Assembly (NCBI RefSeq): GCF_000468495.1
Contig: NC_022444.1
Location: 132,231 to 196,230, forward strand
Length of the DNA: 64,000 bases
Source: Megalodesulfovibrio gigas DSM 1382 = ATCC 19364
Lineage (GTDB): Bacteria > Desulfobacterota > Desulfovibrionia > Desulfovibrionales > Desulfovibrionaceae
Reading direction: 5' to 3'
The translations under genes and the position numbers were made by a program. The notes under the pieces were generated by a model. That model did no database searches and was not told where the DNA came from. It worked only from the letters and a program-made list of their open reading frames with translations. This document shows, in pieces, positions 26,566 through 45,928 of this stretch. The number at the start of each line of letters is the position of its first letter. Position 1 is the stretch's first letter.

Positions 26566-26883
26566 CATCTCCTTCCTGACTGCTTTAGCCACGGCCTCCA
26601 GGCTCTCCAGCCGGTCCCGGTCGATCTGCGTTGCCGTGCCGAGGACCACCGCACGCAGTGGATCGATGGTCAGCATCGCCAGGTCGGTCAGGTCGGCCAG
26701 GCACAGGGCGCGGTCGGCAGCGGCCTGGTGCTGCGCGACGAGTCCGGCCGCCTGTGCCTGGGCATCTTCCAGCGTCTCGGCTTGGCAGTCCACAGACGCA
26801 AAATCTGGATGCTCGCCGACAATACTGCCATCTGGGAGCAGGTCAACAACAGTTTCTGTGATGAGATTGATGATAGCAATCAC
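26545..26883 (-). CDS. Short tail-fibre-associated protein (112 aa)
   Basis: 112 residues. The first ~35 contain a beta-hairpin-like start ([20 protein letters not shown]), the rest is helical and ends in a charged segment. Its position right after the collagen-like fibre, with a four-base ATGA overlap, is where phages encode fibre assembly chaperones or fibre caps. No sequence motif confirms this. A perfect inverted repeat overlaps its stop codon. Confidence 0.6.
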
Positions 26884-28241
26884 AGGATTTGTCCTCCATT
26901 AGTCACTAACGTGCCATCGCCGATGGCCCCGGCAGGCTGTGTGCCGCTCTTGAGGATGATCCCACCAGATGAGTATATCCCGTAGTTTGGTCTGGTGGTC
27001 GCGTCGGATGCGCCGTTGCTTGATTGTATCGGCCCTCCATTCACAACACGGAGCCCATAATTGCCTGACTTGTAGTACGTATTTGACACCTGCCCTGCTG
27101 CAACGTACGTCAAGTCCACCCCCAGCGATGCGGCTGACGTGTCGTAGCACTCAACAGAGCACCCAGAAATTTGCGCAGACAGTGCGCGGATGACGTTAAA
27201 AATCTTTGCCGCCTTCAGCGCACGCACGTGCAAATAATACAAGATCACCATTAAACTTGTATTGCAATTGATGCACGAGCCATCAGAAAGAGTCGCGCTG
27301 TCTGTAAATGTCAGCGAGGCTGACTTTGTTTGCCCCAGGCTGTAATCTGTTGCATTGCCCTGGATCACCAAAATGCCGTTTGAGAACCCGTTGAACCGTA
27401 GCCCTGCGGTCAGAGTATGTTCACCGTCTGCAATCTGGAATGTTAGCACGTATCCATTCAGGTTTTTGGGCTGGGCATTGATGAGCGTCTGCATTTCAGT
27501 GGAGGTCATGCCCAGCGTGAAATTCACGGTCGTATTCGCCGTGAGCATGCGCGGGATATTTGCTGCCAGCCGCCCATCTGGCAGCGTCCCGGCGGCGAGG
27601 GCGCTTGCATCGTGGGTGTGGCCGAGCTGGCTGAATCGGGCATCGCCGCGCGCCTGGGTCAGGTAGTGGGGGTGGTCGTCATCGGAAAGGCCGGAGAGCG
27701 CGCCGTGATCCGATGGGCCGGGCGTGCCTGGTTCACCTTGCGGCCCCTGCTGACCCTGCGGACCAGCCGGACCAACAGCACCGGCCGGGCCTTGGACTCC
27801 TTGCGGGCCAGTGTCGCCCGTGTCACCCTTCGGTCCTTGTGGCCCCTGTGGCCCCATCTCGCCCTGCGGACCCTGTGGTCCCGGAGCTCCTGCCGCCCCG
27901 GCAGACCCGTCCTGACCGTCCTGACCATCAGCACCAGCCGGACCAACGGGACCAGCCGGACCAACAGCACCGGCCGGGCCTTGTGGTCCTTGTGGTCCTT
28001 GTGGTCCTTGTTGGCCGGTTTCGCCTTGCAGTCCTGACGGTCCCTGCTCGCCTTGCGGACCCTGTGGACCTTGCGGACCAGCCGGGCCTGCCGGGCCTGC
28101 CGGGCCTTCAGGGCCAAGCACGCCACCCGATCCCACGTCGCCCACCTGCACGACATCCCCCAAGCGCAGGTTGATCTCGTCCTCCACCACCTGCACGGCC
28201 ACGGGCGCGGGGTCTGTCACCAGAATAATGCAGTCGCTCAT
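26880..28241 (-). CDS. Collagen-like phage tail fibre protein
   Basis: 453 residues. After a ~35-residue N-terminal attachment-like segment, about 145 residues form an almost uninterrupted Gly-X-Y collagen helix ([15 protein letters not shown]). A linker with [21 protein letters not shown] follows; this kind of segment is common in phage fibres. The last ~240 residues look like a receptor-binding tip. The DNA for the tip is visibly richer in A/T than its surroundings, suggesting exchange. The ATG at 28241 overlaps the previous stop (ATGA) and replaces a longer unsupported start. Predicted trimeric fibre mediating surface attachment. Confidence 0.85.
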
Positions 28242-28612
28242 ACCTCCACCCCCGACAGCGCATCGGCCACCACCAGCCGGCCCATGGCCCACACCCGCGG
28301 GCCGGTGCCGTGCTCCCAGACCGCCCGCAGCTCACAGCCCCAGGTGCCCACGGGCAGCGCCGCCGTCTGCTCCGACGTCAGCGCCACCACGGTTTTCCCG
28401 GCCGTGGCGTCTTCGTGTTCCGTCACCTGCACCTGCAGCAGGGGTGTACTGCCAGCCGCCACCGGCCCGGCCGCCACGGTGAACACCAGCCGCGCGCCGG
28501 TCAGGTCCACCGGCACGGCCGGGGAACCCGCCTGCACCTCGATGGCCCACCGCCGCCCATCGCCCCGGTACACCGGCCGATCCGCCGATCCCATCAAGAA
28601 TTGCTCACGCAT
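28238..28612 (-). CDS. Baseplate or fibre-connector-like beta protein (124 aa)
   Basis: 124 residues, beta-rich, with [14 protein letters not shown] and [18 protein letters not shown]. This pattern recalls N-terminal domains of phage baseplate upper-type proteins, in which the strand ends with a T/S-x-x-x-A-ALPxGxY motif. Its place directly before the collagen fibre suits an adaptor. The start at 28612 has GGAGG upstream and overlaps nothing; its stop overlaps the fibre start by four bases. The family assignment is tentative. Confidence 0.6.
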
Positions 28613-28636: not shown

Positions 28637-30373
28637 TTATCGCACCTCCACCATCCGCACGAAGGGCTGTTGCCCGACGCGCATGAAGGGCAAGGGGGTG
28701 GTGTTGGGCCACTGCGGCGCGGGCGTACCCCCGGCCGGTGGTGCCAGCGTACTGCCCGCCGTCCCGGTCCAGATGCTCCACACCGCCTGCCAGCCGCCGG
28801 CCAACTGCCAGACGTCCAGGGGCTGCGCCAGCTCCAGGGACAGCAAGAACCGATCAGCCGGCGTCCAGGCCCTGGGCAGGTCGAACCAGTCCGAGACAAG
28901 CGGGCCATCCACGGCCAACGGGTAGCCCCGGCCCGGGAACGGGATAGCCACGGGCGCGGCCTCGAACTGGTACAGGGGCAGGTCCGGGCCATGGGCCGCA
29001 AAGCCCAGGCGCAGGCCGGCCAGTGTCCAGCACCGGACATTGCCGGCGGCGTCGGGGATCCCTGAGGTCCAGGGCATGTCGTGCCAGAAGAGCACCACCC
29101 GTGCCTGTGTGGCGGATGCCGGCGGGGTGGACACGATGCCCGGCACCGCCTGCCGCGGCAGCAGGATGCGCACGTGCGCCCCGGCCGGCAACTGCATGGG
29201 GTTGTTGTAGTAGATGGAGCCGACGTTGCCGCCAAGCACCTCATAGACGGGATGCGGCGGCGTCTCTGCCGTGCCCGATCCCTCCAGCCCAGCCAGGGCG
29301 AAGGGCGTGCCGTCGCCGGGCATGAACGGACTGCCATTCATGGCGTATGTCCAGGGGAGCACGGTGCCGCCGTCTGCCAATACCCGTGCATGCCTGGGCA
29401 GGACCGCGCCCGCCGGGACGGTCAGGGACACGAGTATATCTGGTGCGGCGCTGGGCAGCAGGTTCAGGGGCACGGCGTCAGACCTGGCCAGGGCACCCGG
29501 CGCAACCGTGACGCCAGCCTGCCCGGAAAAGGTGACGGTTGCGGAATCGCCCGCGAAGTCCCAGCCGGAAGACGCCGCCGGGCCGATCTGTGCCGCGGTC
29601 ACGTCCCACGCCTCGCTCCCTGGTTGCAGCGCCAGCCGCACTTGTGAAACTCCACCAGGGGGCAGCGCCAGCGCCGCGGCCGGGATGCGCCAGCGCAACA
29701 CCGCGTCTGCCGGGGGCGTCTCGATGCTGTCCCAGACTGCCGGCCCTGCGTTCGTGGCCAGGGGCAGCATATTCAGGGTGGCGTCTGCCGGCGTCTCCAG
29801 GGTAGCCACGAAGGGGATGCAGGCGGCGTTGCCCAGGTCATTGAAGAATTCCACCACCTCCCGCGGTGCCGTGGCCTCGCATGCAGCCCGGCCGGCGGCC
29901 ATGAACAAGCGCGCCCCGGTGTCTTCAATGGTGCCGACGCAGGGCCAATACTGGGAGCTGACGCCGTGGCCGGAGAGGATCACGCTCACCACCAGGTCAC
30001 GGCCGGCCACCAGCTCGAAGGGCACGGGGTCAGACACGGGCGCGTCACCTGCCCGGACCACGGCGCAGGGATCGCCCCCGAAGGTCAAGGCCACCTGGTT
30101 GCCGTCGAAGTCCCACGGCTCTGCGTCCACGGCCTCGGACTGGTGCCCGACGACCACCCGGCCCACAATGTACCCGTAGGCCGATGCGGCATTGACCAGC
30201 CCCCGCGGAATGGGCAGCAAGCCCAGGCGGACCACGTTGCCGCTGCGCCGGATGCGCGCGCCAGGGATAACCACGCGCACCGTGGCTTCATCCCGCACCG
30301 GAAAGTACGTCTGGCCGTCCCCCTCGGGATACGGGTCCAGGCACTGCCGCCACTGCATGTCCATCAGGCTCAT
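28637..30373 (-). CDS. Tail-associated protein with repeated GDSL-esterase accessory-like domains
   Basis: 578 residues from the ATG at 30373, which overlaps the previous stop by four bases. Two copies of one beta domain are visible: residues ~87-134 (WDFDGNQVALTFGG...VSDPVPFELVAGRDLVVSVI) and ~271-322 (WDFAGDSATVTFSG...RSDAVPLNLLPSAAPDILVSL). A third, weaker copy (LVSDWFDLPRA...FLLSLELA) lies near the C-terminus. The pattern resembles the N-terminal accessory domain of secreted GDSL/SGNH esterases, though no catalytic GDS or DxxH block is seen. Probably an adhesive or glycan-binding tail component. Confidence 0.6.
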   Translation of the reverse strand: MSLMDMQWRQCLDPYPEGDGQTYFPVRDEATVRVVIPGARIRRSGNVVRLGLLPIPRGLVNAASAYGYIVGRVVVGHQSEAVDAEPWDFDGNQVALTFGGDPCAVVRAGDAPVSDPVPFELVAGRDLVVSVILSGHGVSSQYWPCVGTIEDTGARLFMAAGRAACEATAPREVVEFFNDLGNAACIPFVATLETPADATLNMLPLATNAGPAVWDSIETPPADAVLRWRIPAAALALPPGGVSQVRLALQPGSEAWDVTAAQIGPAASSGWDFAGDSATVTFSGQAGVTVAPGALARSDAVPLNLLPSAAPDILVSLTVPAGAVLPRHARVLADGGTVLPWTYAMNGSPFMPGDGTPFALAGLEGSGTAETPPHPVYEVLGGNVGSIYYNNPMQLPAGAHVRILLPRQAVPGIVSTPPASATQARVVLFWHDMPWTSGIPDAAGNVRCWTLAGLRLGFAAHGPDLPLYQFEAAPVAIPFPGRGYPLAVDGPLVSDWFDLPRAWTPADRFLLSLELAQPLDVWQLAGGWQAVWSIWTGTAGSTLAPPAGGTPAPQWPNTTPLPFMRVGQQPFVRMVEVR

Positions 30374-31188
30374 GCGCCACCCCCTGCTTCCGTCCATTCC
30401 AGGTCCAGGGCCACGGCCTGCCCGTCTACACGATTCGCGCGCACCATGGCGTCAGTTGCCGCGCCCTCCGCTGGGCTCATCACCAGCAACACGGCGTTGC
30501 CGGGCCGCCAGTCCGGCGCGTCCACCAGCTCTTGTACCAGGGCGGCCACGTCCGGGAGCGGGTCGCCTGCGTCCAGGTCCGGCACGTCAAAATCCCAGCC
30601 GCCCGCCGGTGTCCAGCCGGCCCAATTGTACGGCCAATCCGTGGCCCATGGCCCGAAGGCTTGCAGCATGTCATCAGTGGCCGGGTCAAGAAAGCTGCCC
30701 GTATCGAGGTGGGCCGTGTAGTTTTCGTGCCGCAGGGCCACTTCACTCATGATTTCCGCCATGCCCTCCGGCGTCTCGGGATCATGGACCAGCCCGCCAA
30801 GGGACTCCCAGAACGCGGCCACGGCGTCCCGCTGGTCCTGCGTCATGGCGGCCACGGCCACCGCTGCCGTGCCCAGCGCATCCAGCACCGTGGCCAGGGC
30901 GCTCATGCTGCCGGGCGGGTCTGCATCGGCCAACCCATCCGCCGGGACGTGCGCCCGCAGTCGTCCGGTGCCCACGGCTCCCAGGCCCTGCACCGTGGCG
31001 CTGGTCAGTTCCGCGCCCTGCGGCACCGCCAGCCCGCGGAAGCACCACCACAGGTGGAACCCGGCGTAGAACCCGGCCACCCCGCTGCACTCCGCCTCGC
31101 CCGGCAGGCACCACGGGAACACCGCGCCCTGCGGCTGTTCTGTTTGCCCGGCGTCCCACGGATGCGCCAATTCAATGCGCTGCTGCAC
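30370..31188 (-). CDS. Tail-associated protein sharing a beta domain with the phage protease
   Basis: 272 residues starting at a GTG (31188) with GGAG upstream. The N-terminal region (FHLWWCFRGLAVPQGAELTSA) and the C-terminal region (VAALVQELVDAPDWRPGNAV) align with the C-terminal domain of the protease at 31965-33881 (NYWGCFVFEGAAIPLGTTVTSA; LSAVLQEVLSREDWVPGGGL). The middle ~100 residues are an insertion rich in Ala with MTQDQRDAVAAFWESLGG. The shared module resembles DNRLRE-type surface domains. The stop overlaps the next start by four bases. Likely decorates the particle. Confidence 0.6.
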   Translation of the reverse strand: MQQRIELAHPWDAGQTEQPQGAVFPWCLPGEAECSGVAGFYAGFHLWWCFRGLAVPQGAELTSATVQGLGAVGTGRLRAHVPADGLADADPPGSMSALATVLDALGTAAVAVAAMTQDQRDAVAAFWESLGGLVHDPETPEGMAEIMSEVALRHENYTAHLDTGSFLDPATDDMLQAFGPWATDWPYNWAGWTPAGGWDFDVPDLDAGDPLPDVAALVQELVDAPDWRPGNAVLLVMSPAEGAATDAMVRANRVDGQAVALDLEWTEAGGGA

Positions 31189-31216
31189 ATTTGCTCCAAG
31201 GGAAAAGGATTTCTTC

Positions 31217-31280
31217 CTGGGGGACTACCGTCCCCCAGACCCCCTATCCGGGGGGCCAGGGGGGCACTGCCCCCCTGAAA
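31217..31280. repeat. 64-bp G/C-tract repeat, copy A
   Basis: Starts CTGGGGGACTACCGTCCCCC, a hairpin, and ends with a second hairpin (GGGGGGCACTGCCCCCC). It matches copy B at 31880-31943 at 61 of 64 positions. Together they flank the gene at 31295-31852. Confidence 0.85.
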
Positions 31281-31294
31281 AAGCCGTTCTCTGC

Positions 31295-31852
31295 TTAGGC
31301 CTCCACTTCAGCCAGCGCGCCGCCGGCAAGGGTGAGGGCATTGCCTGTACCGCCAATGCTGGTCACGTGCAGCGCCAGGGCATGCGCGCCGCAGGTGTCC
31401 CATGCCAGGAGCGGGGCCAGATATTTGCCGCTGGCATCCCGCAGGGTGGTGGCATCGCAGGCTTTGGACTCCAGCAGCCCCACCGGCGTGACCCATTCCA
31501 GGCCGTCATAGTGGAGGATCACGGGCGTCACCACGGCCACGCCATCGGCGGCGCTGTGGGTGGCCGTCACCACCAGCCGGTCACAATCGCCCACGAAGAT
31601 GAGCGAATCGTCAAACCAGGCCGTGGCGGTGCCGGCCTCCACCTGCGCCAGACTGACGGCATCGAGGGCCGCCGCATCCGCCGCTTCCACGGCGCTGCGC
31701 AACACGCGCTGCCAGTCCGCCAACTGCCGCGAGGCAAAGTCTACCAACTGCACCACGCGGGCATCGCCCGTGGCCGTGGGCTGTACCGCCGTGCGGGTGG
31801 CGATGACGTCGCCGCCGCTGACGGCGCTGCGAATCCGGGTGCCTGTTTCCAT
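31295..31852 (-). CDS. Structural protein paralogue in a repeat-flanked cassette
   Basis: 185 residues with GGAG before the ATG at 31852. Its C-terminal half aligns with the protein at 34090-34722: VAVVTPVILHYDG against SAIITPLVLPPDG, and ALALHVTSIGGTGNALTLAGG against VAVHVAGLDDGPAGNAVQVLGG. The N-terminal half (VDFASRQLADWQRVLRSAV) is helical and different. It is the only gene in this part of the array that is not overlapping its neighbours; instead both sides carry a 64-base repeat. This suggests a duplicated or inserted cassette. Exact role in the particle unknown. Confidence 0.65.
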   Translation of the reverse strand: METGTRIRSAVSGGDVIATRTAVQPTATGDARVVQLVDFASRQLADWQRVLRSAVEAADAAALDAVSLAQVEAGTATAWFDDSLIFVGDCDRLVVTATHSAADGVAVVTPVILHYDGLEWVTPVGLLESKACDATTLRDASGKYLAPLLAWDTCGAHALALHVTSIGGTGNALTLAGGALAEVEA

Positions 31853-31879
31853 GGAATACTCCAGGGGGAAAAGAGTTTT

Positions 31880-31943
31880 CTGGGGGACTACCGTCCCCCA
31901 GACCCCCTATACGGGGGTCCAGGGGGGCAGTGCCCCCCTGAAA
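31880..31943. repeat. 64-bp G/C-tract repeat, copy B
   Basis: Direct repeat of copy A with three substitutions. It lies between the protease stop and the start of the 185-residue protein gene. Its two stem-loops could also attenuate transcription of downstream fibre genes. Confidence 0.85.
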
Positions 31944-31964
31944 GAAATCTTCCTCTGCCTCTTC

Positions 31965-33881
31965 TCATTCCCATTCCACGCGCAGGCGCGGGGCGTGGGC
32001 CGGGTCAGCATCAGGCCCAAGACCGCAGACCAGCAGCGATGCCCAACCGGACGTTTCATCCGTGATCCGAATCATGAGCCCGCCGCCGGGGACCCAATCT
32101 TCGCGGCTCAGGACCTCCTGCAGCACGGCGGACAGGTCCGGAGAGGTCAGCACGTCCCCAGGGGCCGGCGTGTCCGCGGCGATGGTCCAGCCAACAGACG
32201 CATCCGTGCGGCGGTAGGTGTTCCATTCCGTGTAGTCACGGGGGCGGAACGCATCGCGCTGCATGCCGGCCCGCAACGTCAGTTGCACCGTGCTCCCGGC
32301 AGGGTTGAACAACCGGCGGTCGTGCAGCACGTCCGGGGAAATGGTCAGTTCCAAAACGGCTGATGTGACGGTGGTGCCCAGGGGAATGGCCGCGCCCTCG
32401 AACACGAAGCAACCCCAATAGTTGTGATACCCCTTCTTCCCCAGACGGATGACGCCCGCGCCGTGGGTCAGCTCGGAAAAATCAGGCACGACCTGCATGG
32501 AATCGGGCCGGTGCCGGACGGGCAAGGTCAACGTCCCGGCCGCCGGATACACGGGCGCAACGGGCGCGCCGGCATCTGGCACCGCCTCGACGATGGCGGC
32601 AGACGGGGAGGCCGCCGGCTCGCAATCCACGCCGAAAAACCATTGGTTGCCGCTGGTGGATGGCGCGGGGTGCGCGGTCACGTCGTCGTAGGCCTCGATC
32701 TGCAGGGCCTGGGCCACGGTCCAGATGGGCGTGAACGTCCCGAACTCCACACCAGACCCGGCGAAAAACAGGCCAATGATTTTAAACTGTCCATCGATGA
32801 GCCCAAGCACCACGCTGCCGGAATCGCCGGGCAGGTTGGTGACGTCGCCTTCGTAGGCAGACGAGAACACCATCTGCCCGGTGAAGATGGCCCCGAGCGC
32901 CTCTTCAAAGGGGTCCCACAGCTTGTACTGCTCCCAGCCAGGCAGGCGGCGATAGGTGTCGCCATAGTCCACGTCTGCCGCGGCGCTCAGGCTGATGATG
33001 GTGCCCAGGGACGGCGGCACGCGGCCGGTGGTGCGGCCGGCCTTGTAGACGGTCATGCCGAGAACGACTTCGGACTTTGCGGCAAAGGGCAGCGGCCCAT
33101 CGGTGATGGACAGCATGCCCCACGCGGCGGTGATGCCTGGATCAATGGCGATAATGCCGCCGTCCACGGTGTTGGATGGCGCGGCCGGGTAGGTGACATA
33201 TGCATCGGTGAAGGGCCACGGATCGCCGGTGTACAGCGGCACGCCTTCGGGATGGTCCAACCGGGTAGCGGTATGAAAGTTGAGGGGCACGCGGCGCAGG
33301 GACGTGCCGATTCGGTCGCGTTCCGGGTGGCCCGTGTCGGGCACGGCAGGCTGGTGCACCACCACGCGCGCATCGTCGTTTTCCCCGAACCACGGCACGC
33401 CATAGGCCGGGTTGTAGGCCATGCCCAGGCAGTGATTGTTGGTCAGGCCCACCAGCCGGCCGCCACCATTCGGGGAGGCATCGCGGACGATGGCCCCCAG
33501 GGTGCCCACGGCATCGGCTGCCCAGGGCCAGCGGTCATGGAACATGGACACGCCGCCAATCAGCGGGCGGTGCCGTTCAACGGGACGGTCGCATCCGAGT
33601 GGCCATTCAGACAGACAGAACTTGCCGATGCGCGGCCGGGCATGCGGCCGCCAGCGCTGGATAACGTCGGTACGCAGCCCGTCCATGACCGGCGGGACAC
33701 GCTGCGCCGGGGGAATATCTGCCAGGGGACGTTTGCTGGCCACGGCCACCACCACGGCAGGTTCGCCAGTGTTGCGGCCGTTGGTGGTTTTGGTCCCGGC
33801 CATGACCAGCCCGGCCCCGGTCTGCTCCAGGATGGCCCGGCCGTGGGTGGCCACAAACGATTCTGCGCGGCGCATGCTCAT
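31965..33881 (-). CDS. Trypsin-fold serine protease fused to a beta-rich virion domain
   Basis: 638 residues. Residues ~1-400 have the organisation of bacterial Nal1-type trypsin-like proteases: an N-terminal domain with EPAVVVAVASKRPLADIPP and a candidate catalytic triad His150 (LTNNHCL), Asp240 (NTVDGGIIAI) and Ser354 (LPGDSGSVVLG). VYKAGRTTGRV also fits that family. No signal peptide is present. Residues ~440-638 are a beta domain shared with the 272-residue protein at 30370-31188. It overlaps its upstream neighbour by ATGA inside the structural array, so it is probably a particle-borne or morphogenetic enzyme. Target unknown: capsid or fibre maturation, or host surface proteins. Confidence 0.75.
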   Translation of the reverse strand: MSMRRAESFVATHGRAILEQTGAGLVMAGTKTTNGRNTGEPAVVVAVASKRPLADIPPAQRVPPVMDGLRTDVIQRWRPHARPRIGKFCLSEWPLGCDRPVERHRPLIGGVSMFHDRWPWAADAVGTLGAIVRDASPNGGGRLVGLTNNHCLGMAYNPAYGVPWFGENDDARVVVHQPAVPDTGHPERDRIGTSLRRVPLNFHTATRLDHPEGVPLYTGDPWPFTDAYVTYPAAPSNTVDGGIIAIDPGITAAWGMLSITDGPLPFAAKSEVVLGMTVYKAGRTTGRVPPSLGTIISLSAAADVDYGDTYRRLPGWEQYKLWDPFEEALGAIFTGQMVFSSAYEGDVTNLPGDSGSVVLGLIDGQFKIIGLFFAGSGVEFGTFTPIWTVAQALQIEAYDDVTAHPAPSTSGNQWFFGVDCEPAASPSAAIVEAVPDAGAPVAPVYPAAGTLTLPVRHRPDSMQVVPDFSELTHGAGVIRLGKKGYHNYWGCFVFEGAAIPLGTTVTSAVLELTISPDVLHDRRLFNPAGSTVQLTLRAGMQRDAFRPRDYTEWNTYRRTDASVGWTIAADTPAPGDVLTSPDLSAVLQEVLSREDWVPGGGLMIRITDETSGWASLLVCGLGPDADPAHAPRLRVEWE

Positions 33882-34087
33882 GGGGCTGGCTCCTCAGCAT
33901 GGGCGTACCAGACTCGCAGCAACTCAGACTGAGCACGGGACAGTGACTCGCGCGAAACGACCGAGCACGTCGGCAGTGGGCGAAATTCAGACGCGCCCTT
34001 GCCTTGTGGGATGACTCCCCCATCCGAAAAACAATCCTGGGGGCTCCGTTTGAGATCCATGTTGACGACAACAATCGGGCACTCCAT
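33878..34087 (-). CDS. Small structural-cluster protein (69 aa)
   Basis: 69 residues. The ATG lies two bases after the stop of the 210-residue gene, and its own stop overlaps the protease start by four bases, which is the main evidence that it is translated. It begins MECPIVVVNMDLKRSPQDCF and has no recognisable motif. Confidence 0.55.
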   Translation of the reverse strand: MECPIVVVNMDLKRSPQDCFSDGGVIPQGKGASEFRPLPTCSVVSRESLSRAQSELLRVWYAHAEEPAP

Positions 34088-34089
34088 GT

Positions 34090-34722
34090 CTACACCTCTT
34101 CCAGTGCCCAGGCTGGCACGTCCTGCCCGGTGTTGGGGTTGGTTTCCGGGACGGGCGACCAGCGCTGCAGCAGCGGGCCACCCAGGGACACGGCCCCCTG
34201 CGGTGCGGCCACGCCTCCCAACACCTGCACGGCATTGCCGGCCGGTCCGTCATCGAGACCCGCCACATGCACGGCCACACACGCCACGCCGACCAGTTCC
34301 CAGACCAGCCGGGCGCAGCGCCAGGCCCCGCCGATGGACGATTCCCGAACCGTGGCCGTGGCAGTTTTGGGATCCAGCACCGCCACCACCTGCGCCCCGT
34401 CCGGGGGCAGCACCAGGGGCGTGATGATGGCCGAACCGCCGGCCATCAGGTGCCGCACGTCCAGAGCCAGCCGCCGGGCCAAGCCCACGCGCAACCGGGA
34501 GGCCAGCAGGGCATCAGACGGCGCAGCCAGGGACGCGGGGTCATCCTCGGACACCCAATCGCGCACCACGGCGGCCGCATCCACGGGCCGGGATGTCCGG
34601 TCCAGCAGCACAATGCCCCGGGCGCGGTCCAGGTGATCCGGCTGCATGGCCCCGCGCATGGCCAGCACGGCGGCGGCCTCTTCGGCAGGCACGGCAAGCG
34701 TTATGGCACCGCGTTCACTCAT
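34090..34722 (-). CDS. Virion structural protein (210 aa), paralogue of the 31.3-31.9 kb protein
   Basis: 210 residues, start overlapping the stop of the 785-residue gene by four bases. The C-terminal region shares with the 185-residue protein a pattern of ITPL..DG...HV..GNAV.LGG. The N-terminal ~90 residues are helical (PSDALLASRLRVGLARRLAL) and distinct. No known domain is recognised. Its tight coupling to the large upstream protein suggests that the two work together in the tail or head surface. Confidence 0.65.
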   Translation of the reverse strand: MSERGAITLAVPAEEAAAVLAMRGAMQPDHLDRARGIVLLDRTSRPVDAAAVVRDWVSEDDPASLAAPSDALLASRLRVGLARRLALDVRHLMAGGSAIITPLVLPPDGAQVVAVLDPKTATATVRESSIGGAWRCARLVWELVGVACVAVHVAGLDDGPAGNAVQVLGGVAAPQGAVSLGGPLLQRWSPVPETNPNTGQDVPAWALEEV

Positions 34723-37076
34723 GCGCGCACCTCCCAGGAAAATGCGAATTCGGAATGGATGCTCGAGGCGGTAAAGGTGGCGTCGTCAAAGGCGGCCTGG
34801 AGCAAGGCCGTCAGGGCGGCTTCCAGGCTCGTGTCCGTGGGCAGCGTGAACGGCGAGTCCGAGAGGGGATATTCCAGGGTACTGCCGCTGCCGGCGGCCA
34901 CCACGATGTCAAAGCCGGGGTGGAGATGCTTGACGCCTTCGGTGACATATGGCTCAAGCCACCAGCACCGCGTGACCACGGCATAGGCGAAGAGCCAGGA
35001 ACGATGCGTGCGCAGGCCAAAGCCGTTCACGACCACGGTACGGTCGTTCCAGATCCATTCGCGCGTGCTGTCGCTGTGCTGCCCCGAATCCTGGACCACG
35101 GGCCGCCGGGCATGGCTGACGTCGGTCCAGGCAAAGGCCGACCGGTGGAAGATGCCGGGAAAGGCGATGCGATCCGTCACCGTCTCGCTGAATTCCATGG
35201 TGTTTTCGGTCAGATCCGTGACGAACCACACCTCGCGCCAGGCGGTGTATTCGCGCGACACCTGGAGGACGTCCGTAAAGTCCCCCCAGACGCAGCGCAG
35301 GGACGTGGCCGGATGCGGCGCGGCGGCCTGGCGTTCGCAACAGAGGAAGGGGTGTTCCTCCCGCCAGAGGCGCACGTCGTGGAGGTGGCCTTCCTCATCC
35401 GCAAACACGTGCGTGATTTCCCGGCGGTGGCTGGCGATGTCCTGGCCGGCGTGGGCGTTGGCCCGCGCATCCTCCACCAGGCAGACGCCGCAACGGACGC
35501 CGAGGGGTTCGCCATCCAGGGCCGCGGGATAGGTCGGACATTCGCCGGGCGGATCGCAGGTCAGGGGCTCACACTGGCGGCCGGGCGAGGGCCGGCAGTC
35601 GATGCGTTCGGAAACGGTGTCCCGGAAGCCCAGGCGCTCGGCCCCCAGGAGGTTGTGCATCTGGTCCTGGATGGGCACCGGCCGGCTCTGGTCCAGCCAG
35701 GGCTGCAGGACGTCGCGGGTGCAGGGAAAGACATCGGGCGAGAGCGTCCCGCCGTGGCCGTCGGGCAGGTCCTGCGCCGGCCGGCCGGTCTGGGCGTCCC
35801 AGACCAGACAGAATTCGCGGCCGCCATGCTCCGGGATGCCCACGGCGATGAGGATGTATTCGGCGCAGGGCCGGGGACGCTTGTCCGCAAAGCCAAGCAC
35901 CGCATGGGCCAGTTGCAGGCCGCGGGTGGAGACCACCAGCACGGCGTCGTCAGGCTGAAAGGCCGTGTGGCCGCCGGCCACGCTGACGGCATTGGGGCAA
36001 TGGTAATGCACGGGCAGGTTGCCCTCCCGGCCCCATTCCATTTCCACGTCCAGCGTGCCGTTGGCCTGTGCTTCGATGACCACGCCCCGCCGCAGGCAGA
36101 AATCCAGCAAATCCCCCAGCTCGCCGCGGCGTACGGCCGGGGGGGCGTAGGGCTCAAACACCGGCGATTCGGACGCAAAGCCGCCGCAGACAAGGGGCAG
36201 GATCACCGCCTGCGGTGTCATGCCGGCTTCCAGGACCGGCCGGGGCTCTTCGTCGGGCCGCGTGTGGCTGCCGCCGCTGGCGGTGTTCACGTCCACGGTC
36301 ATGTACGATTCCCACCACTCGCAACGCCGGCACAGGCTGCCCACGTGGCTGTAGAACACCCAGTCCCCAACCTGATACGGCACATGATCCGAGGCCGCGC
36401 ACACGGCCCAGCCGCCATGCCCCTGCACCAGCAGCCGGCGGTCTTCCTCGCCTTCCTCGCCGGCCGTCTCCACCACCCTCCCGCCGCGCAGGCAGGGCGT
36501 TTCCATCCAGCCGCCGGCGTGCACGCGGGAAACCGCCACCCCCGGGCCGGCAAAGTCCCACACCAGGGACAGCAGATCCCCCGGCACGGCCTGGGGCGTC
36601 TCGACGAACACCATGGAGCGCCCGTTGGCCGCCGGCAGAACGGGCCGGGAACGGGCATTGCCTCCGGGCACTTCCGGGACCACAATGGGGCCGATGCGCC
36701 GCGGCTCCCCCGTCTGCGGGCCATGCGCCTGGGCCGTGGTGGCCAGCCAGCGGCAATGCTTCGGATGTTTGAGGATCAGGGCCAGATCGTCCAGCATGGC
36801 CTCCTCCACGCCGGTGGGGGAACGACGCACTGCCCGGCCGAAGCGCAGGGAGGGCGTGCCGGCGTCGCAGTATTCGTTTTCGTATTCGGGCAGCAGACGG
36901 ACCTCCACCTTGCCGCGGGAGGATCTGGCAGCCTGCAGGTGGACGAAGACCTGCGCCCCTGACGTTTCCAGCCCCGGCCCGGGCTCCAGGCATTCGCCGC
37001 GGGAGTGCACGCGAAGGCCGGAGGTGGCGCCGTGCAAGGGGCAACAGAATATGCTGAGTTGTGGCATGGCGTTCAC
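34719..37076 (-). CDS. Large cysteine-containing virion structural protein (785 aa)
   Basis: 785 residues, the largest protein of the cluster. The GTG at 37076 gives a GTGA overlap with the previous stop; an ATG three codons later is an alternative. Several CxxC pairs stand out (LCRRCEWW, VRCGVCLV, and CEPLTCDPPGECP), unusual for a virion protein and suggestive of metal binding or disulfides. There is no coiled coil long enough for a tape measure. I do not recognise the family; its size and place suggest a tail hub or receptor-proximal component. Confidence 0.6.
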   Translation of the reverse strand: MNAMPQLSIFCCPLHGATSGLRVHSRGECLEPGPGLETSGAQVFVHLQAARSSRGKVEVRLLPEYENEYCDAGTPSLRFGRAVRRSPTGVEEAMLDDLALILKHPKHCRWLATTAQAHGPQTGEPRRIGPIVVPEVPGGNARSRPVLPAANGRSMVFVETPQAVPGDLLSLVWDFAGPGVAVSRVHAGGWMETPCLRGGRVVETAGEEGEEDRRLLVQGHGGWAVCAASDHVPYQVGDWVFYSHVGSLCRRCEWWESYMTVDVNTASGGSHTRPDEEPRPVLEAGMTPQAVILPLVCGGFASESPVFEPYAPPAVRRGELGDLLDFCLRRGVVIEAQANGTLDVEMEWGREGNLPVHYHCPNAVSVAGGHTAFQPDDAVLVVSTRGLQLAHAVLGFADKRPRPCAEYILIAVGIPEHGGREFCLVWDAQTGRPAQDLPDGHGGTLSPDVFPCTRDVLQPWLDQSRPVPIQDQMHNLLGAERLGFRDTVSERIDCRPSPGRQCEPLTCDPPGECPTYPAALDGEPLGVRCGVCLVEDARANAHAGQDIASHRREITHVFADEEGHLHDVRLWREEHPFLCCERQAAAPHPATSLRCVWGDFTDVLQVSREYTAWREVWFVTDLTENTMEFSETVTDRIAFPGIFHRSAFAWTDVSHARRPVVQDSGQHSDSTREWIWNDRTVVVNGFGLRTHRSWLFAYAVVTRCWWLEPYVTEGVKHLHPGFDIVVAAGSGSTLEYPLSDSPFTLPTDTSLEAALTALLQAAFDDATFTASSIHSEFAFSWEVRA

Positions 37077-37885
37077 GCGATGAAGTGATCGTTGTTAAGG
37101 GAATCCAGGCGGGTATCCTGATAGCCCGGGGCCGTGACATACAGCTCCACCCGTGCGCCGGAAGGAATGGGACCAATCTCCACCTGCCCGTTTTCGTCAG
37201 CCTGCCCGCGGCCGTAGGTGGTGGAGACCATGGCCCCGGGCACGGGATCGCCGGTGCAATGGTCCACCACGGTGAGCACGTAGCGCGTGGGCTGCGCCGC
37301 AGCGGCGGCGGACTCGTCCGTCGGGTTGGAATACGTCAGCTGCACGCCGGCAAAGGCCGGGCTCCAGTCCGCCGGTATGGCCAAGGACGCCCCGCGTTCA
37401 GGGTTGCGGACGGTTTCCGGGGTGAAGCCCAGGCTGGCCAGGGCCTCGCGACACATGGCCAGCACCAGCACGCGGGGCAGGGACAACGCCGACGCCGGCA
37501 ACCGCCAGCGTGAATACTGCGTCCGGTAGACCACCTTCGCCACGCCCAGCACCGGCCCCGGAACCACGACCTCGCCCCCGCGCACGGCGATTTCGCCGCA
37601 GTCCTTGCCCACCCAGGATGCCGCAGGCGGCCCGACCACGGGAGACGACAACGCCGCCCGCGCCGTCAGGGCAAAGTCCAGATACTCCGTCACATCCTCG
37701 GGGATGTTGCGGCCCAGCAGACGCAACGGCTCGGCCAGGCTGGCCAGCACCACGGCGTCGCAATCCGCATAGCAGCGGAAGATGCCCGTGCTGGAAAAAT
37801 CCGCCTCCGCCACCAGGGCGATGCGAGGGGCCGCGACATCTGCCGCAAGCTGCAGCTGTGTTGTCTGGGAAAGAATGCCGCTCAC
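37073..37885 (-). CDS. Virion protein with C-terminal carboxypeptidase-regulatory-like fold (270 aa)
   Basis: 270 residues from a GTG that overlaps the previous stop as GTGA, with GGAGGAGGG upstream; a longer in-frame start is rejected. The last ~75 residues (VVDHCTGDPVPGAMVSTTYG followed by GQVEIGPIPSGARVELYVTA) look like a small Ig-like domain of the carboxypeptidase-regulatory or Big-type class, common on phage surfaces. The N-terminal part begins GILSQTTQLQLAADVAAPRI and has a regular beta pattern. Function inferred only from context. Confidence 0.6.
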   Translation of the reverse strand: MSGILSQTTQLQLAADVAAPRIALVAEADFSSTGIFRCYADCDAVVLASLAEPLRLLGRNIPEDVTEYLDFALTARAALSSPVVGPPAASWVGKDCGEIAVRGGEVVVPGPVLGVAKVVYRTQYSRWRLPASALSLPRVLVLAMCREALASLGFTPETVRNPERGASLAIPADWSPAFAGVQLTYSNPTDESAAAAAQPTRYVLTVVDHCTGDPVPGAMVSTTYGRGQADENGQVEIGPIPSGARVELYVTAPGYQDTRLDSLNNDHFIA

Positions 37886-38424
37886 AGGCTGCCCTCCTCC
37901 ACCTCGCCGCGCACGGCCAGGCAGACGGTCCAGGCGGAGGCGTCCCGCCAGGGCAACACGAAGCGCCGGCCAATCCAGGCCGTGCGGTAGCGCACCTCGG
38001 CCACGGCCGCCACGGGCGCATCTTCCACCACGCCCGGAGCCGTCACCAGAGTCCCGGCGCACTGCAGCGCCCCGGGCAGGCTCCTGCCCAGCCAGCGCTG
38101 CACCGTCAGGGAATCGTCCACCGCCGGCAGATTCAGGGACGCCCGGGCCGAACCGGCAAGGCAGATCGTTTCCGTGCGCGTCTCTTCCCCGCCGCTGGAG
38201 ACGGCCAGCACGCCGTCGCTGAGGGCGAAGGTCAGCCGCATGGACGCCGGCCAGGCATGAATGCGCAGATAGACGGACTCGCCGAAGCGGAAGGCGCTGC
38301 GCGCCTCGCCGTACAGACGACGATGCATGGCGTCGTCCAGTTCAAGGTACAGACAGGCATCGGCATGGTCCACGGTGGCGGCAAAGGCCAGCCGCACCCA
38401 GGCATTGGCGAACAGATCAGCCAT
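37882..38424 (-). CDS. Virion structural protein (180 aa)
   Basis: 180 residues starting MADLFANAWVRLAFAATVDH, mostly beta-like with AWPASMRLTFALSDGVLAVS. It overlaps the previous gene by eight bases and the next by four (GTGA). Family not recognised. The size and the coupling to a protein with an Ig-like end suggest a tail or decoration role. Confidence 0.6.
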   Translation of the reverse strand: MADLFANAWVRLAFAATVDHADACLYLELDDAMHRRLYGEARSAFRFGESVYLRIHAWPASMRLTFALSDGVLAVSSGGEETRTETICLAGSARASLNLPAVDDSLTVQRWLGRSLPGALQCAGTLVTAPGVVEDAPVAAVAEVRYRTAWIGRRFVLPWRDASAWTVCLAVRGEVEEGSL

Positions 38425-38683
38425 GATTGCAGATCACCTCCTCACGTTCCGCCATGCCCGCGCCGGCCAGGGGCAGCGCCGCCACCCCGCCCGGCCAGTC
38501 CAGCAGCAGCACGGCCTGCCCCGGCTCCAGGGCGGCATCGGCCGTGGCCTGGATGCTGGCGTCTCCCGCCTGCACCAGCACGCGCCCTGCCCCCAGCCGG
38601 GCCGTGACCACCCCGCGCCGCGCCGCGGCCGCCGTGGCCGTCACGCGCGTTCCCGGCGTTGTTGCCCCTGCTACATTCGCCAT
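38417..38683 (-). CDS. Small virion protein (88 aa)
   Basis: 88 residues from the ATG at 38683, inside the end of the previous gene (13-base overlap) with GGAGG upstream. Ala/Gly-rich and beta-like (TARLGAGRVLVQAGDASIQA), it resembles small decoration or spike-base proteins only in composition. A longer start further upstream is not supported. Confidence 0.55.
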   Translation of the reverse strand: MANVAGATTPGTRVTATAAAARRGVVTARLGAGRVLVQAGDASIQATADAALEPGQAVLLLDWPGGVAALPLAGAGMAEREEVICNHG

Positions 38684-40476
38684 GACACACCCTCCAGGGT
38701 ATGGATGCAGGAGGCCCCTTCGCAGTGCAGGGACCATCCGACGAGGGAAAAATGCCCGTCCACGCCAGCCCCGGCCGACTGCACCCGAACGAGCATGCCG
38801 TCTTCCACGGTCGGATCGCAGGGAATGCGGGCCGTCACCATGCGCCGGGGCAGGCAGGTCCCCAGCAACACGGCCTCTGCAGCCAGCACGGCCGCCCGCC
38901 GCGAGCCGGCCAGGGGTTCCTCCAGCACATCCGGATGGACGGGATGCACGGTCGGATCCGGCCGCAGGGAGCTGCGCACCGTCACGGCCACCGCGCCTGC
39001 CGGGGCCACGCCCATGACGAAGAGCGCCTCGGCCTGATCCACCTCGCGCAGCAGATAGCGGTCAAAGGCCGTCAGATACCGGATGTCGGCCAGACCATGG
39101 ACGCCGGCAGCGGCCTGCAGCATCTCGCTGCGCCCACCGGCCTGCACCGCGCCGCCGTGGCTGCCCACCCAGGCCGGCGACTGCAACAGCCGGAGCACCG
39201 GCCGCGAGGCCGTGGCCTGCCCGGCCACAAAGGACACGCGCTCGGCCATCGCTTCCACGGCCGGCCCGAGGCGCTGCACCCGCCCGGCCGAGACCCAGGG
39301 CGCCAGCCGCAGCACGTCCGGGCCGGTGATCCGCCAGTACACGCGAACCACGGCTTCGGCCCCGCCCACGTGTTCCAGCTCCACCAGGGGCGTGGCGGCC
39401 TCGCCCGCAGCGCCCAGCACATGCACCGCGCCCCAGGGCTGGCCGGGATCGTCCGTCACAGTGAGGCCCAGCAGGGTTTCCTCCGCCCGGACCTGCAACG
39501 TTGCCCGGGCCAGGGGCAGGATAGCGGGGCCGTGGGGATGCCGGGGCCGGATGCGGAATCCCCCTTCCGCCGTACTCCGCAGCACGCCGCCGGCTGCCGA
39601 GGCAATCCGCGCCGCCAGGGTCACCGGCGTATCGTGCAGCGATGTCCAGGCCGGCAGGGGGAAGTCTTCCATCTCCCAACAGAGGGACGCGGGCGCGAGC
39701 ACGGCCGTCGCCGCCTCCCTGGCGCTGCGCGGTCCGGCCCCCGTCTCCAGGGAGACGGCCCCGGCATGCGGCGCATCCAGCAGGATGCCGGCAGACGCAG
39801 CCTGCACCGTGGCCAGGTGATCTTCCCGCGCCACCGCAGTGACCACGAAGCGCCACGCCCGGCCCAGCGCCTCCACCACCAGCACGGGCGCGGCGGCCTC
39901 GCGGATCCTGTCCAGGCGCTCCGCCAGGGCGGCATCCACCCCGGCAAGGGTCAGGCGCAGGTGCGGATCCTCCCGATCCTGCCTGATGGTGCAGGCCCGG
40001 AGGCGATGGGAGATGTCCTCCCCGTCCAGCAGCACGCGGCGGGACGGCGATTGCGCCACCAGTGGCGGCAGGCAGACGGCAGGACAGGCCAGCCGCCCCC
40101 GGACCGCAGGCGACATCGTCTCGACAGCCGTCCTGCCCTGCAGGGGGGCGGCGTCCATGCTGGTGCGCAGCGCAAGACGCCCGGCGCTTCCGGCGGTCAG
40201 GGCCTGCGTGATCCCCAACTGGCCGCGACCGCCCCCGGCCACAATGGCCTGCAGCATGGCACATTCGCCCCGCCGGGCCGCGCCGCCGCGGGACAGCGTC
40301 CCGGGCAGGGCCAGGCAACGCCGCCGGCCACCGGACAGATCCCCTGCCAGGTGCATCTGCCGCCGCCAGCCGCCGCCGACCGCCACGGGATGATCGCCAG
40401 CCTGCCCCAGGGGCACCGGCCACGAATGGACCCCGGCGAGGTCGCGTTGATCGGAGAAACACAACAGAATGGTCAT
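38671..40476 (-). CDS. Large virion structural protein (601 aa)
   Basis: 601 residues beginning MTILLCFSDQRDLAG, nine bases after the previous stop. Regular beta-like segments run through it (LLDGEDISHRLRACTIRQD, VHVLGAAGEAATPLVELEH). The segment DGEDIS.RLR.CTI is like the start of phage late-control or baseplate-hub domains, but the match is too short to rely on. Two overlapping antisense frames are GC-bias artefacts. Structural role inferred from position. Confidence 0.6.
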   Translation of the reverse strand: MTILLCFSDQRDLAGVHSWPVPLGQAGDHPVAVGGGWRRQMHLAGDLSGGRRRCLALPGTLSRGGAARRGECAMLQAIVAGGGRGQLGITQALTAGSAGRLALRTSMDAAPLQGRTAVETMSPAVRGRLACPAVCLPPLVAQSPSRRVLLDGEDISHRLRACTIRQDREDPHLRLTLAGVDAALAERLDRIREAAAPVLVVEALGRAWRFVVTAVAREDHLATVQAASAGILLDAPHAGAVSLETGAGPRSAREAATAVLAPASLCWEMEDFPLPAWTSLHDTPVTLAARIASAAGGVLRSTAEGGFRIRPRHPHGPAILPLARATLQVRAEETLLGLTVTDDPGQPWGAVHVLGAAGEAATPLVELEHVGGAEAVVRVYWRITGPDVLRLAPWVSAGRVQRLGPAVEAMAERVSFVAGQATASRPVLRLLQSPAWVGSHGGAVQAGGRSEMLQAAAGVHGLADIRYLTAFDRYLLREVDQAEALFVMGVAPAGAVAVTVRSSLRPDPTVHPVHPDVLEEPLAGSRRAAVLAAEAVLLGTCLPRRMVTARIPCDPTVEDGMLVRVQSAGAGVDGHFSLVGWSLHCEGASCIHTLEGVSWRM

Positions 40477-43490: not shown

Positions 43491-43946
43491 TCAACTGCGC
43501 ACCAGCCGCACCGGACGGCGCGGCCGCACATCATCCCCGGCATCCACGGCCCCGGAGGCGTTCCAATCGTAACGGACACCTTCCTGCAGCACGCGGAGCA
43601 GCTCGGCTTCGTAGTCCTCACGGCAACGGGCGGCGTTGCGCTCGAAGCCGTCGGGCTCCGGCGAGGCGGCCCGGGCGGCATCGAAGAGCAGCTCCAGCGT
43701 CTTGAGCACGCAGCATCGCGTCAGCTGTGCGGGTTGCAATCGGGCAGGATCCAGGGGGTGCCGCCGCCAGTTCACCCCCCGTCGGGCTGCCTCCTGGCGG
43801 TGCCAGCGGCGGGCAAGATCCTCCAGCAGCAGGGCCGTGGCCCGTTCCCGCTGCCGATGGCAGCCCGGTTCTCCCGGAACAAGCAGGGACGGCGCGGCGG
43901 CAAAGGCCAGCTCGATATCCGCATCCGTGGCAAAGGTTGTCGTCAT
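43491..43946 (-). CDS. Head-tail connector-like protein (151 aa)
   Basis: 151 residues with an N-terminal ATDADIELAFAAAPSLLVPG and helices (RERATALLLEDLARRWHRQ; LTRCCVLKTLELLFDAARA). The start resembles head-tail connector proteins of the gp6/DUF1320 type, whose order right after the capsid gene it shares. The terminator-like hairpin upstream separates it from the coat gene. Identification is by position and helical layout only. Confidence 0.55.
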   Translation of the reverse strand: MTTTFATDADIELAFAAAPSLLVPGEPGCHRQRERATALLLEDLARRWHRQEAARRGVNWRRHPLDPARLQPAQLTRCCVLKTLELLFDAARAASPEPDGFERNAARCREDYEAELLRVLQEGVRYDWNASGAVDAGDDVRPRRPVRLVRS

Positions 43947-44056: not shown

Positions 44057-45211
44057 CTACCCCAGCACGCGGCAGGCCAGTTCCGGCCGCACCAGGGCCG
44101 CGCCGAAGAGGATGTCGTAACTCCAGCGGGTGCGCTTGTATTCGCGGGAGACCTCCAGCCGCAGGGACAGGCCGCTGACGGGATCGGTGACGGACTGGAT
44201 CATGGACCCCAGCCCCTCGGCGGCATCCACCAACGGGCGGTTGGCAAAGGCGATGGCATCCCGGTGGAAGGCCAGGTTCACGGCGTGGTTGCCCAGCACG
44301 GCCAGCGTCTCCCCGCCCGCAGTGGCCTGTTTGAGCCCGGCAGTCAGGCGCACCACGCCGTCGGCGCCGGCGGCGATGGTCACGGCGTCGGCCACGGCAT
44401 AGGTGGCGTCATCGTGCTCAATGGTCAGCAGGTCCCCTGCCTTCAGGGACAGGGCATTGGTCGCGCCACAGGTCACGGTCAGGGAGGTGGCGCCTGCAGC
44501 CGCCGCAGCACCGGCCTTGAGCACCGTGGGAGTGCCCGCGGTGCCGCCCACACTGCCGGCCACGTGCAGGGGCACGTTCTGATCCATGAACCAGTCGAAG
44601 CCCAGCTTGCGGGTGATGTCGCCCTCCTGGATGGTTTCGGCCGAGCCGGCAAAGGAGGCGTCCTGGAAGGCGCGCAGCATCAGCGCATTGGCTTCGGCGT
44701 CGGGATCCATGACGAAGCGGCGGTCGGTCTTGGGGGCGCTGGCCGAGGAGAGCACCTTGCGGGCCGCGGTGATGGCCGCGAGATCCGTGCCGAAGGGCGT
44801 GGTGCCGGCCGTGCCCACGGCCTGGGACACCCCGCCGTACAGACCCAGCAGGTAGGCATCCACGTAGTTGGCCAAAGCCTTGATGGCTTCCGCAGCCTGC
44901 ATGGGGATGGCCCCATCCATCACGGAGAGCATGTCTTTGTCCGTCAGATAGAACGGGGCTTCCCGCCACTGATCCATGGCGATGGGCACACTGGCGGCGG
45001 CCAGGCCGTCCAGGGCGGGGGCGGTGGCGGCGGGCTCCACGGCGGCGCTGCTCATGGCCGTGGGCACGGGCACGTCGATGACGGCGCCCTTGCGGGCTGC
45101 TTCCACGCCGAAATCGGCATTCACCAGCCGGGGCATCACGGAGTGCTGCCGCAGGGTGATGACGCCCTGGGCCAGAAGTTTGGGAGTGATGGCGGAAAGA
45201 TCGGTGGGCAT
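44057..45211 (-). CDS. Major capsid protein, P22 coat (gp5)-like
   Basis: 384 residues. The first 210 residues show the P22-type order: helical N-terminus (SAITPKLLAQGVITLRQHSV), an extended arm (GAVIDVPVPTAMSS), and a long helix (AAEAIKALANYVDAYLLGLY). Residues ~217-307 form an inserted beta domain (SLTVTCGATNALSLKAGDLL) comparable to the P22 I-domain. The C-terminal block (LVDAAEGLGSMIQS, KRTRWSYDILFGAALVRPEL) matches the end of the family. The upstream neighbour is a scaffold-like protein. This is the clearest capsid hallmark in the window. Confidence 0.85.
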   Translation of the reverse strand: MPTDLSAITPKLLAQGVITLRQHSVMPRLVNADFGVEAARKGAVIDVPVPTAMSSAAVEPAATAPALDGLAAASVPIAMDQWREAPFYLTDKDMLSVMDGAIPMQAAEAIKALANYVDAYLLGLYGGVSQAVGTAGTTPFGTDLAAITAARKVLSSASAPKTDRRFVMDPDAEANALMLRAFQDASFAGSAETIQEGDITRKLGFDWFMDQNVPLHVAGSVGGTAGTPTVLKAGAAAAAGATSLTVTCGATNALSLKAGDLLTIEHDDATYAVADAVTIAAGADGVVRLTAGLKQATAGGETLAVLGNHAVNLAFHRDAIAFANRPLVDAAEGLGSMIQSVTDPVSGLSLRLEVSREYKRTRWSYDILFGAALVRPELACRVLG

Positions 45212-45247: not shown

Positions 45248-45928
45248 TTAGCGGACGTTGACTTCGCCGCGGGCGATGGCTTCGAGATTGGCGGCGAAGG
45301 CCTTGGCGTCGTTGCGGGGGATGATCATCCCGGCGCGGGACTGGCGCTCGGCGTTGCCGGCCGCACCGGAGCCGGCATGGCTGGCCCGCAGGATGGCGTC
45401 GCGCTCGGGGTAGTACTGCATGATGTACAGCTCCAGGGCCTCCTCGGGGCCGGCCAGACGGGCGGGGTCTTCCCGGGACATGATGGCCGAGCCGTCCGGG
45501 GCATGGGCCACGGCCGTGGCCACGCCGTCCACCTCTTCCACGGTGAAGATGCGGCCGAAGACCTCCATGGCGATGGACGGCGGCAACACCGTTTTTTCAC
45601 GCAGAAACACCGAGTTGAGGATGACGTTGGAGACGAGCAGGGTTTTGAGCTGCTCGTCGCGGGCGGCCAGGGCGGCTTCCAGTTCCTTGATGCGGCCGGC
45701 CTGAATGGCCTGGGCTGGCTGGACGGGCTGGGCGGGGGACGGCAGGGACTCGGCAGGCACCCCGGGGGCGGGCGCAGCCGCCGGGGCTGCCGGAATTGCC
45801 GGGGGCGGGGTTGCCGAGACTGCCGGGATAGGCGCGGCAGCAGCCAACCGCTGCTCCAGCTGCTCCAGACGGGCCAGCAAGGCCGCCAGATCCGGGGCCG
45901 TCTGCGGTGCAGGGGAAAACTCGTGCAT
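45248..45928 (-). CDS. Phage scaffold-like protein (226 aa)
   Basis: 226 residues; the ATG at 45928 has AAGGAGG nine bases upstream. The N-terminus has a short coiled coil (LAALLARLEQLEQRLAAA), a Pro/Ala-rich linker (residues ~32-75), another coiled coil (RIKELEAALAARDEQLKTLL), and a C-terminal region with VFGRIFTVEEVDG and a YYPERD segment. The location just before the coat gene and this layout are typical of scaffolding proteins. No protease motif is seen. Confidence 0.7.
   Translation of the reverse strand: MHEFSPAPQTAPDLAALLARLEQLEQRLAAAAPIPAVSATPPPAIPAAPAAAPAPGVPAESLPSPAQPVQPAQAIQAGRIKELEAALAARDEQLKTLLVSNVILNSVFLREKTVLPPSIAMEVFGRIFTVEEVDGVATAVAHAPDGSAIMSREDPARLAGPEEALELYIMQYYPERDAILRASHAGSGAAGNAERQSRAGMIIPRNDAKAFAANLEAIARGEVNVR

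Follow-up and report, generated by a model that had tools for sequence, protein, structure and literature searches.

Proteases are familiar from the structural operons of tailed phages as head-maturation enzymes, which have other folds and are encoded before the coat gene, and the enzymes by which phage tails are known to open the way into the cell mostly degrade sugars or the cell wall. The described protein closest in profile and in fold to the one reported here is NARROW LEAF 1 (NAL1) of rice (PDB 8hau, 7y77, and 8pmg), and its match among phage protein families is phrog_20754, annotated as 'protease'. The element that encodes it is best compared with the gene transfer agents (GTAs), among them RcGTA, BaGTA, and Dd1, which are vertically kept sets of phage structural and packaging genes. 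Of these, Dd1 of Desulfovibrio desulfuricans (small-terminase locus tag Ddes_0720; PMC6854486) is the one described in sulfate reducers and is barely characterized.

The locus examined lies in a 64,000-nucleotide stretch of DNA from Megalodesulfovibrio gigas DSM 1382 (the window, to whose positions plain coordinates refer), in which an initial annotation had placed a trypsin-like protease among distal tail genes at 31965 to 33881. The ORF (P0001) is positioned on the minus strand (33881..31965), starts with ATG, and encodes 638 aa. Its GC content by codon position (0.67/0.53/0.81) and its Ka/Ks of 0.37 over 627 codons, when compared with the copy in a sister species of the same genus (G001), identify it as a gene and not a chance frame; the protease domain alone gave a Ka/Ks of 0.33 against this orthologue. 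A 502-aa ORF opposite P0001 reads as the mirror frame that GC-rich DNA usually shows. The four-base overlap with the upstream neighbor, also part of the earlier description, was found to be an ATGA shared by the P0001 start and the stop of a 69-aa ORF (34087..33878, minus strand), and since GAGGAG is present 8 nt upstream of the start, the two ORFs are probably coupled in translation. Neither an N-terminal hydrophobic signal nor a membrane anchor was seen in P0001, with the absence of the former fitting a protein that is released on particles or when the cell lyses.

Residues 1 to 400 (32682..33881, minus strand) comprise a NAL1_N-like region and a trypsin-like domain, whose core was predicted confidently by AlphaFold2 (pLDDT of about 90, with 219 residues of the whole protein at 90 or above). 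When used as a single sequence, P0001 matched nothing in the PDB and gave only sub-threshold matches in Pfam and NCBIfam, but the family profile matched solved structures, with rice NAL1 first (E-value 2e-17), followed by the streptogrisins and alpha-lytic protease; the PHROG 'protease' profile phrog_20754 was matched by P0001 itself (E-value 4.7e-18). Foldseek searches with the predicted model likewise returned NAL1 (E-value 2.2e-14, probability 1.00, target-normalized TM of up to 0.65) as well as proteases of the streptogrisin type (TM of 0.75-0.77 when normalized by target length), and the structure prediction proposed as a check by the initial annotation thus gave the expected fold. NAL1 resembles P0001 in its NAL1_N-like front part and in the alignment of the His and GDSG motifs; however, it is a plant protein with about 17% identity over the alignment and is without the carbohydrate-binding-like tail domain of P0001. 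As P0001 (16 bits) falls below the curated cut-off of the NAL1_N domain (PF25608, 27 bits), we refer to it as NAL1-like and not as a member of the Pfam family; its orthologue in the sister species (24.5 bits) is also below this value, and one standalone relative passes (33.4 bits). The best match among predicted viral structures was an uncharacterized protein of Virus NIOZ-UU157 (A0A7S9XDX3; E-value 1.9e-24, 21% identity).

The catalytic residues proposed by the initial annotation, His150, Asp240, and Ser354, were found at these positions and are upheld by conservation. In an alignment of 54 homologues, D240 was invariant while H150 and S354 were conserved in at least 90%, and in a second, balanced set the triad was intact in all 35 phage-type and 34 of 35 standalone relatives, with the one exception being a gap. 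Secondary structure and Foldseek both agree with a His-Asp-Ser arrangement in chymotrypsin-fold order in the predicted model. The alignments and the model together support P0001 as a genuine trypsin-like protease with a competent-looking triad, and it is predicted to be catalytically active.

The remainder of the protein, residues ~450 to 638 (31965..32534, minus strand), forms a predicted beta domain that is carbohydrate-binding-module-like and resembles the domains of CBM96/DNRLRE type seen in tail proteins of phages. Foldseek matches apparently due to this region, where pLDDT was moderate (35-89 by blocks), included a chondroitin-sulfate-binding module (8wab; E-value 1.3e-5) and pro-BMP9 and, in a library of viral structures, siphovirus tail proteins and a CBM96 phage protein. 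The DNRLRE model NF033679 was matched below threshold (13.8 bits versus a cut-off of 34). A homologue of the domain was identified in the protein that ends another phage-like cluster of the Desulfovibrionaceae (L033). The orthologue in the sister species is longer (864 aa) and adds a Laminin_G_3 domain (E-value 1.4e-19), a typical ligand-binding addition. That the beta domain is shared with a neighboring tail protein, as had been suggested, holds in part: P0001 and the 272-aa distal protein (30370..31188, minus strand) were related over the last 62 aligned columns only (hhalign probability 94%, from tiny alignments; blastp E-value 0.008 over 27 aa), such that the likeness is modest and limited to the domain end.

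P0001 is part of a cluster that extends on the minus strand from 45.9 to 26.9 kb and encodes a scaffold, a major head protein, connector-position proteins, a tail protein, a largely unassigned array, the protease, and a collagen-like fiber. The head scaffold protein (45248..45928) matched phrog_206 (E-value 1.3e-5) and phrog_784 (E-value 7.6e-17), and the major head protein (44057..45211) matched phrog_283 (E-value 7e-77). These are followed by a 151-aa connector-position protein (43491..43946; 41% identity to L041 and L043 proteins), which is kept in a second genus, by a member of a functionally unassigned phage family (40486..41916; phrog_6128, E-value 1.5e-30), and by the tail protein (38671..40476; phrog_6079, E-value 4e-6). 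The array includes a 270-aa protein with a carboxypeptidase-regulatory-like beta domain (37073..37885; PF13620, E-value 1.5e-5, 25.7 bits and thus below the Pfam cut-off of 32.3) and a 782-aa protein without a family match (34719..37067). Its 210-aa (34090..34722) and 185-aa (31295..31852) proteins, located on either side of the protease, are paralogues (blastp 33% identity, E-value 2e-12), which indicates that the array has grown by duplication. The adjacent 270- and 180-aa array proteins (37073-38424) are also related (36% over 70 aa). At the distal end, the 272-aa protein is joined by a 586-aa protein (28637..30397), with a 58% identical orthologue in the sister species, and by the collagen-like tail fiber protein (26880..28292), which matched phrog_5073 (E-value 2.8e-44) and many other tail-fiber families. 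The structural-array setting described at the outset is therefore confirmed, with head, scaffold, tail, and fiber families surrounding P0001. Though it shares a structural-operon setting with the head-maturation proteases, P0001 matched none of their families in PHROG, and its gene is located among fiber genes downstream of the head protein gene (45211..44057) and not before it.

The 185-aa gene lies between two repeats rich in hairpins, with one copy at 31194..31294 and the other, 85% identical, directly after the P0001 stop (31853..31965); a partial copy is present in the sister species (L016:12520-12564). These repeats may be a route by which genes enter and leave the distal array. Outside the cluster, an ORF at 53609..50895 that was considered as a phage primase/helicase was dropped, as its matches are to kinase-type families and it looks like a gene of the host.

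In the sister species, this cluster occupies the equivalent locus and is flanked by the same host genes. Two genomes of a second genus (G011 and G051) have a shorter cluster at this locus, which consists of the scaffold, the connector, the fiber, and the head protein, the latter 67-68% identical to that of M. gigas (compared with 92% for the sister species). The protease gene is missing from these shorter cassettes and, thus, is an addition to the element and not essential to it. Among the searched genes of the M. gigas locus, only scaffold, head, tail, and fiber families were detected and no terminase, portal, or integrase. The genes for portal, holin, terminase, and small terminase, joined by a homologue of a late activator, were found together about 60 kb away and outside the window (G000:C2:237711-241941, where G000 is this genome; L053:7711-11941). 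The portal is 94% identical in the sister species and 66-68% identical in the two genomes of the second genus, in which the packaging block is about 10 kb from the head block. Head and packaging loci co-occur in four genomes of the two genera (G000, G001, G011, and G051), with conserved host flanks. When compared with the sister species, the head protein gene displayed a Ks of 0.36, equal to that of the host flank serB (0.36; other flank, 0.45), and a Ka/Ks of 0.13. Most genes of the distal module (28637-33881) were found to evolve faster than the head and host genes, with Ka/Ks of 0.33-0.45 and Ks of 0.84-1.07, the latter about twice that of the head gene (44057-45211) and the host flanks. 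Divergence of this type is as in receptor-binding modules and suggests exchange as well as selection.

As in the described GTAs, phage structural and packaging genes are here vertically kept at host loci, as judged from flanks, co-distribution, and Ks; in this case the loci are two, both chromosomal. A contiguous set of integrase, replication, and packaging genes, as in an active prophage, was not found among the searched genes of the locus, with terminase and portal about 60 kb off. The cluster is probably, therefore, a vertically kept, domesticated, two-locus GTA-like element and not an ordinary prophage or active phage, and the phage setting assigned by the initial annotation is retained for the structural genes but not for the element as a whole. 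The head cassette and the terminase/portal/holin/late-activator block look like an apparently undescribed two-locus GTA-like element of the Desulfovibrionaceae. Two further genomes (G591 and G406) have homologues of the head protein in apparently fuller prophages, both with very long ORFs that are tape-measure-like; the G406 prophage has terminase-like genes as well.

Relatives of P0001 were detected in 16 of the 297 genomes that were sampled from the phylum, as well as on many contigs of IMG/VR, with alignment queries needed for the latter as P0001 alone matched nothing. The wider family consists mostly of standalone proteins of about 330 aa that have no tail association in viral contigs and are widespread in bacteria, with further members in one control genome from an archaeon and in viral contexts of diverse kinds. 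The idea that the family is a tail protein generally was rejected, since the neighbors of the standalone genes encode terminases, head-maturation proteases, DNA enzymes, and others. Although phrog_20754 was matched by P0001 as well as by proteins of two viral contigs (L074 and L070), most of its members found on viral contigs are of the standalone type without a tail-type domain, and P0001 is in a separate clade. In a phylogenetic tree, P0001, its orthologue, and 35 phage-type sequences excluded 35 standalone proteins (SH-aLRT 100/UFBoot 100), and a smaller tree under a richer model recovered the same grouping of P0001 with the phage-type proteins. A PFA motif at 265-267 marks this clade and is missing from the standalone proteins. 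In IMG/VR, members of the phage-type clade were found on at least 80 contigs (102 above the threshold of the search; 43 non-redundant). A further match of the family profile (G057, C2:159246-159659) was set aside, as it was due to a beta-domain row of the alignment and not to the protease.

The database search proposed earlier for homologues in phages thus did place them in structural contexts. In the L074 phage, the protease gene is positioned between a head-tail adaptor and the tail sheath, tube, and baseplate hub genes and has a 4-base overlap with its upstream gene. In three others (L067, L070, and L077) the protease is the N-terminal domain of multidomain proteins of 1184-1285 aa with threonine-rich linkers, encoded 24 nt upstream of a tail-fiber gene. 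The neighbors of about 30 non-redundant clade members include tail, tail-fiber, baseplate-wedge, and virion families, with other neighbors being enzymes; not every member, thus, is among tail genes. Overall, the occurrence of the closest relatives in structural gene blocks of large uncultivated phages suggests that the protease is carried on the particle, with cell surfaces or fibers as its target. None of the clade was detected by tblastn with P0001, L074, and L227 in 50,697 deposited phage records, and the clade, therefore, marks an overlooked phage group. The standalone L026 protein matched only three of these records, all of the wider family; it also matches the putative serine protease of Aeropyrum coil-shaped virus (Spiraviridae; 30% identity, E-value 1e-21), a standalone protein of an archaeal single-stranded DNA virus and not of a tailed particle.

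The best explanation of these findings, for which we put the chances at about even, is that P0001 is a catalytically competent NAL1-type protease in the distal fiber apparatus of GTA-like particles that acts on the recipient surface. The enzyme would be incorporated at the distal end of particles made by the domesticated two-locus element, where its carbohydrate-binding-like domain (and the Laminin-G domain in the sister species) may dock it at the fiber tip or at the surface of the recipient cell. It could then cut a protein of the recipient surface (S-layer, pilus, or adhesin, for example) or expose a receptor, and would in this way do to protein what tailspike depolymerases do to polysaccharide; the particles would presumably transfer DNA. 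This explanation is based on (i) the intact triad, the NAL1 fold and profile, the carbohydrate-binding-module and phage-tail matches, and the Laminin_G_3 domain of the orthologue; (ii) the sister clade in phage head-tail and tail operons, its 100/100 separation, and the fast distal module; and (iii) the retention of head and packaging loci together in two genera. Counter to a surface role are the L074-type gene near neck and sheath genes, which also fits a role in assembly, the lack of the protease in the shorter cassettes of the second genus, the standalone family without tail association and the enzymes among phage-type neighbors, and the lack of a signal or membrane anchor that would indicate the destination of P0001.

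The main rival, which we consider unlikely, is that P0001 is a maturation enzyme that trims proteins of the fiber or neck, or its own C-terminal end, as particles are assembled, in which case host cells need not be a target. Its gene is embedded in structural operons with a start that overlaps the upstream stop, some standalone relatives are near head-maturation protease and terminase genes, and the long linker at residues 402-441, of low confidence in the model (pLDDT <50), could be a site of self-cleavage. However, no recognized head-maturation family is matched, the coat gene lies far upstream, a purely internal protease would be an odd carrier of glycan-binding-like and Laminin-G domains, and the cassettes of the second genus have no copy although their major head protein is 67-68% identical. 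That same absence may instead reflect a passenger (moron) gene, that is, a host-directed or defense protease that landed in the cluster and acts outside the particle; the widespread standalone family and a distal module with Ks above that of host genes, indicative of a separate history, would also fit. We regard this as quite improbable, as P0001 is on the same strand, coupled by ATGA, and equipped with a tail-type C-terminal domain, and members of its sister clade are in phage structural blocks. Less probable still is an ordinary decaying prophage remnant, with cluster and protease on the way out and no present function. The missing terminase, portal, and integrase among the searched genes would be explained, but the packaging genes are intact elsewhere in the genome, Ka/Ks is low for the head protein (0.13) and the protease domain (0.33), and both loci are kept in four genomes of two genera between conserved host flanks. 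Enzyme folds are frequently co-opted for binding in virus proteins, yet a pseudoprotease that serves as a binding module without cutting is the most improbable of these, as the full triad and its GDSG context were kept in every phage-type relative inspected.

If P0001 acts at the surface of recipient cells as preferred here, it would be a testable surface-acting part of a GTA-like element in sulfate reducers. Extension of this role to the clade is more tentative: a clade of uncultivated large phages and one GTA-like element may carry virion-borne proteases of the NAL1 type that process receptors, opening or exposing the protein layers of the recipient cell as a proteolytic equivalent of tailspikes that degrade polysaccharide, which we find possible but doubtful. 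With a protease clade conserved in tail modules, the cutting of protein would become a further way of entry or of activating fibers, and the plant regulator NAL1 would have a phage counterpart. The initial annotation had considered a particle-borne protease to be new; this does not apply to the protease family, which is known from phrog_20754 and from NAL1 in plants, but it may apply to the virion-module clade, as NAL1-type proteases with tail-type domains in virion modules were not found as a clade in the literature searched, which was of partial coverage, and neither was a GTA component like P0001. The same protease domain is also present in other architectures. It was observed in an 883-aa protein of a viral contig (L108:7920-10571), together with apparent glycoside-hydrolase-like and SpoIID-like parts and outside of a tail context, and in three viral proteins of 494-495 aa (L089, L114, and L149), in which it is followed by a C-terminal domain of about 200 aa in a context that is not obviously structural.
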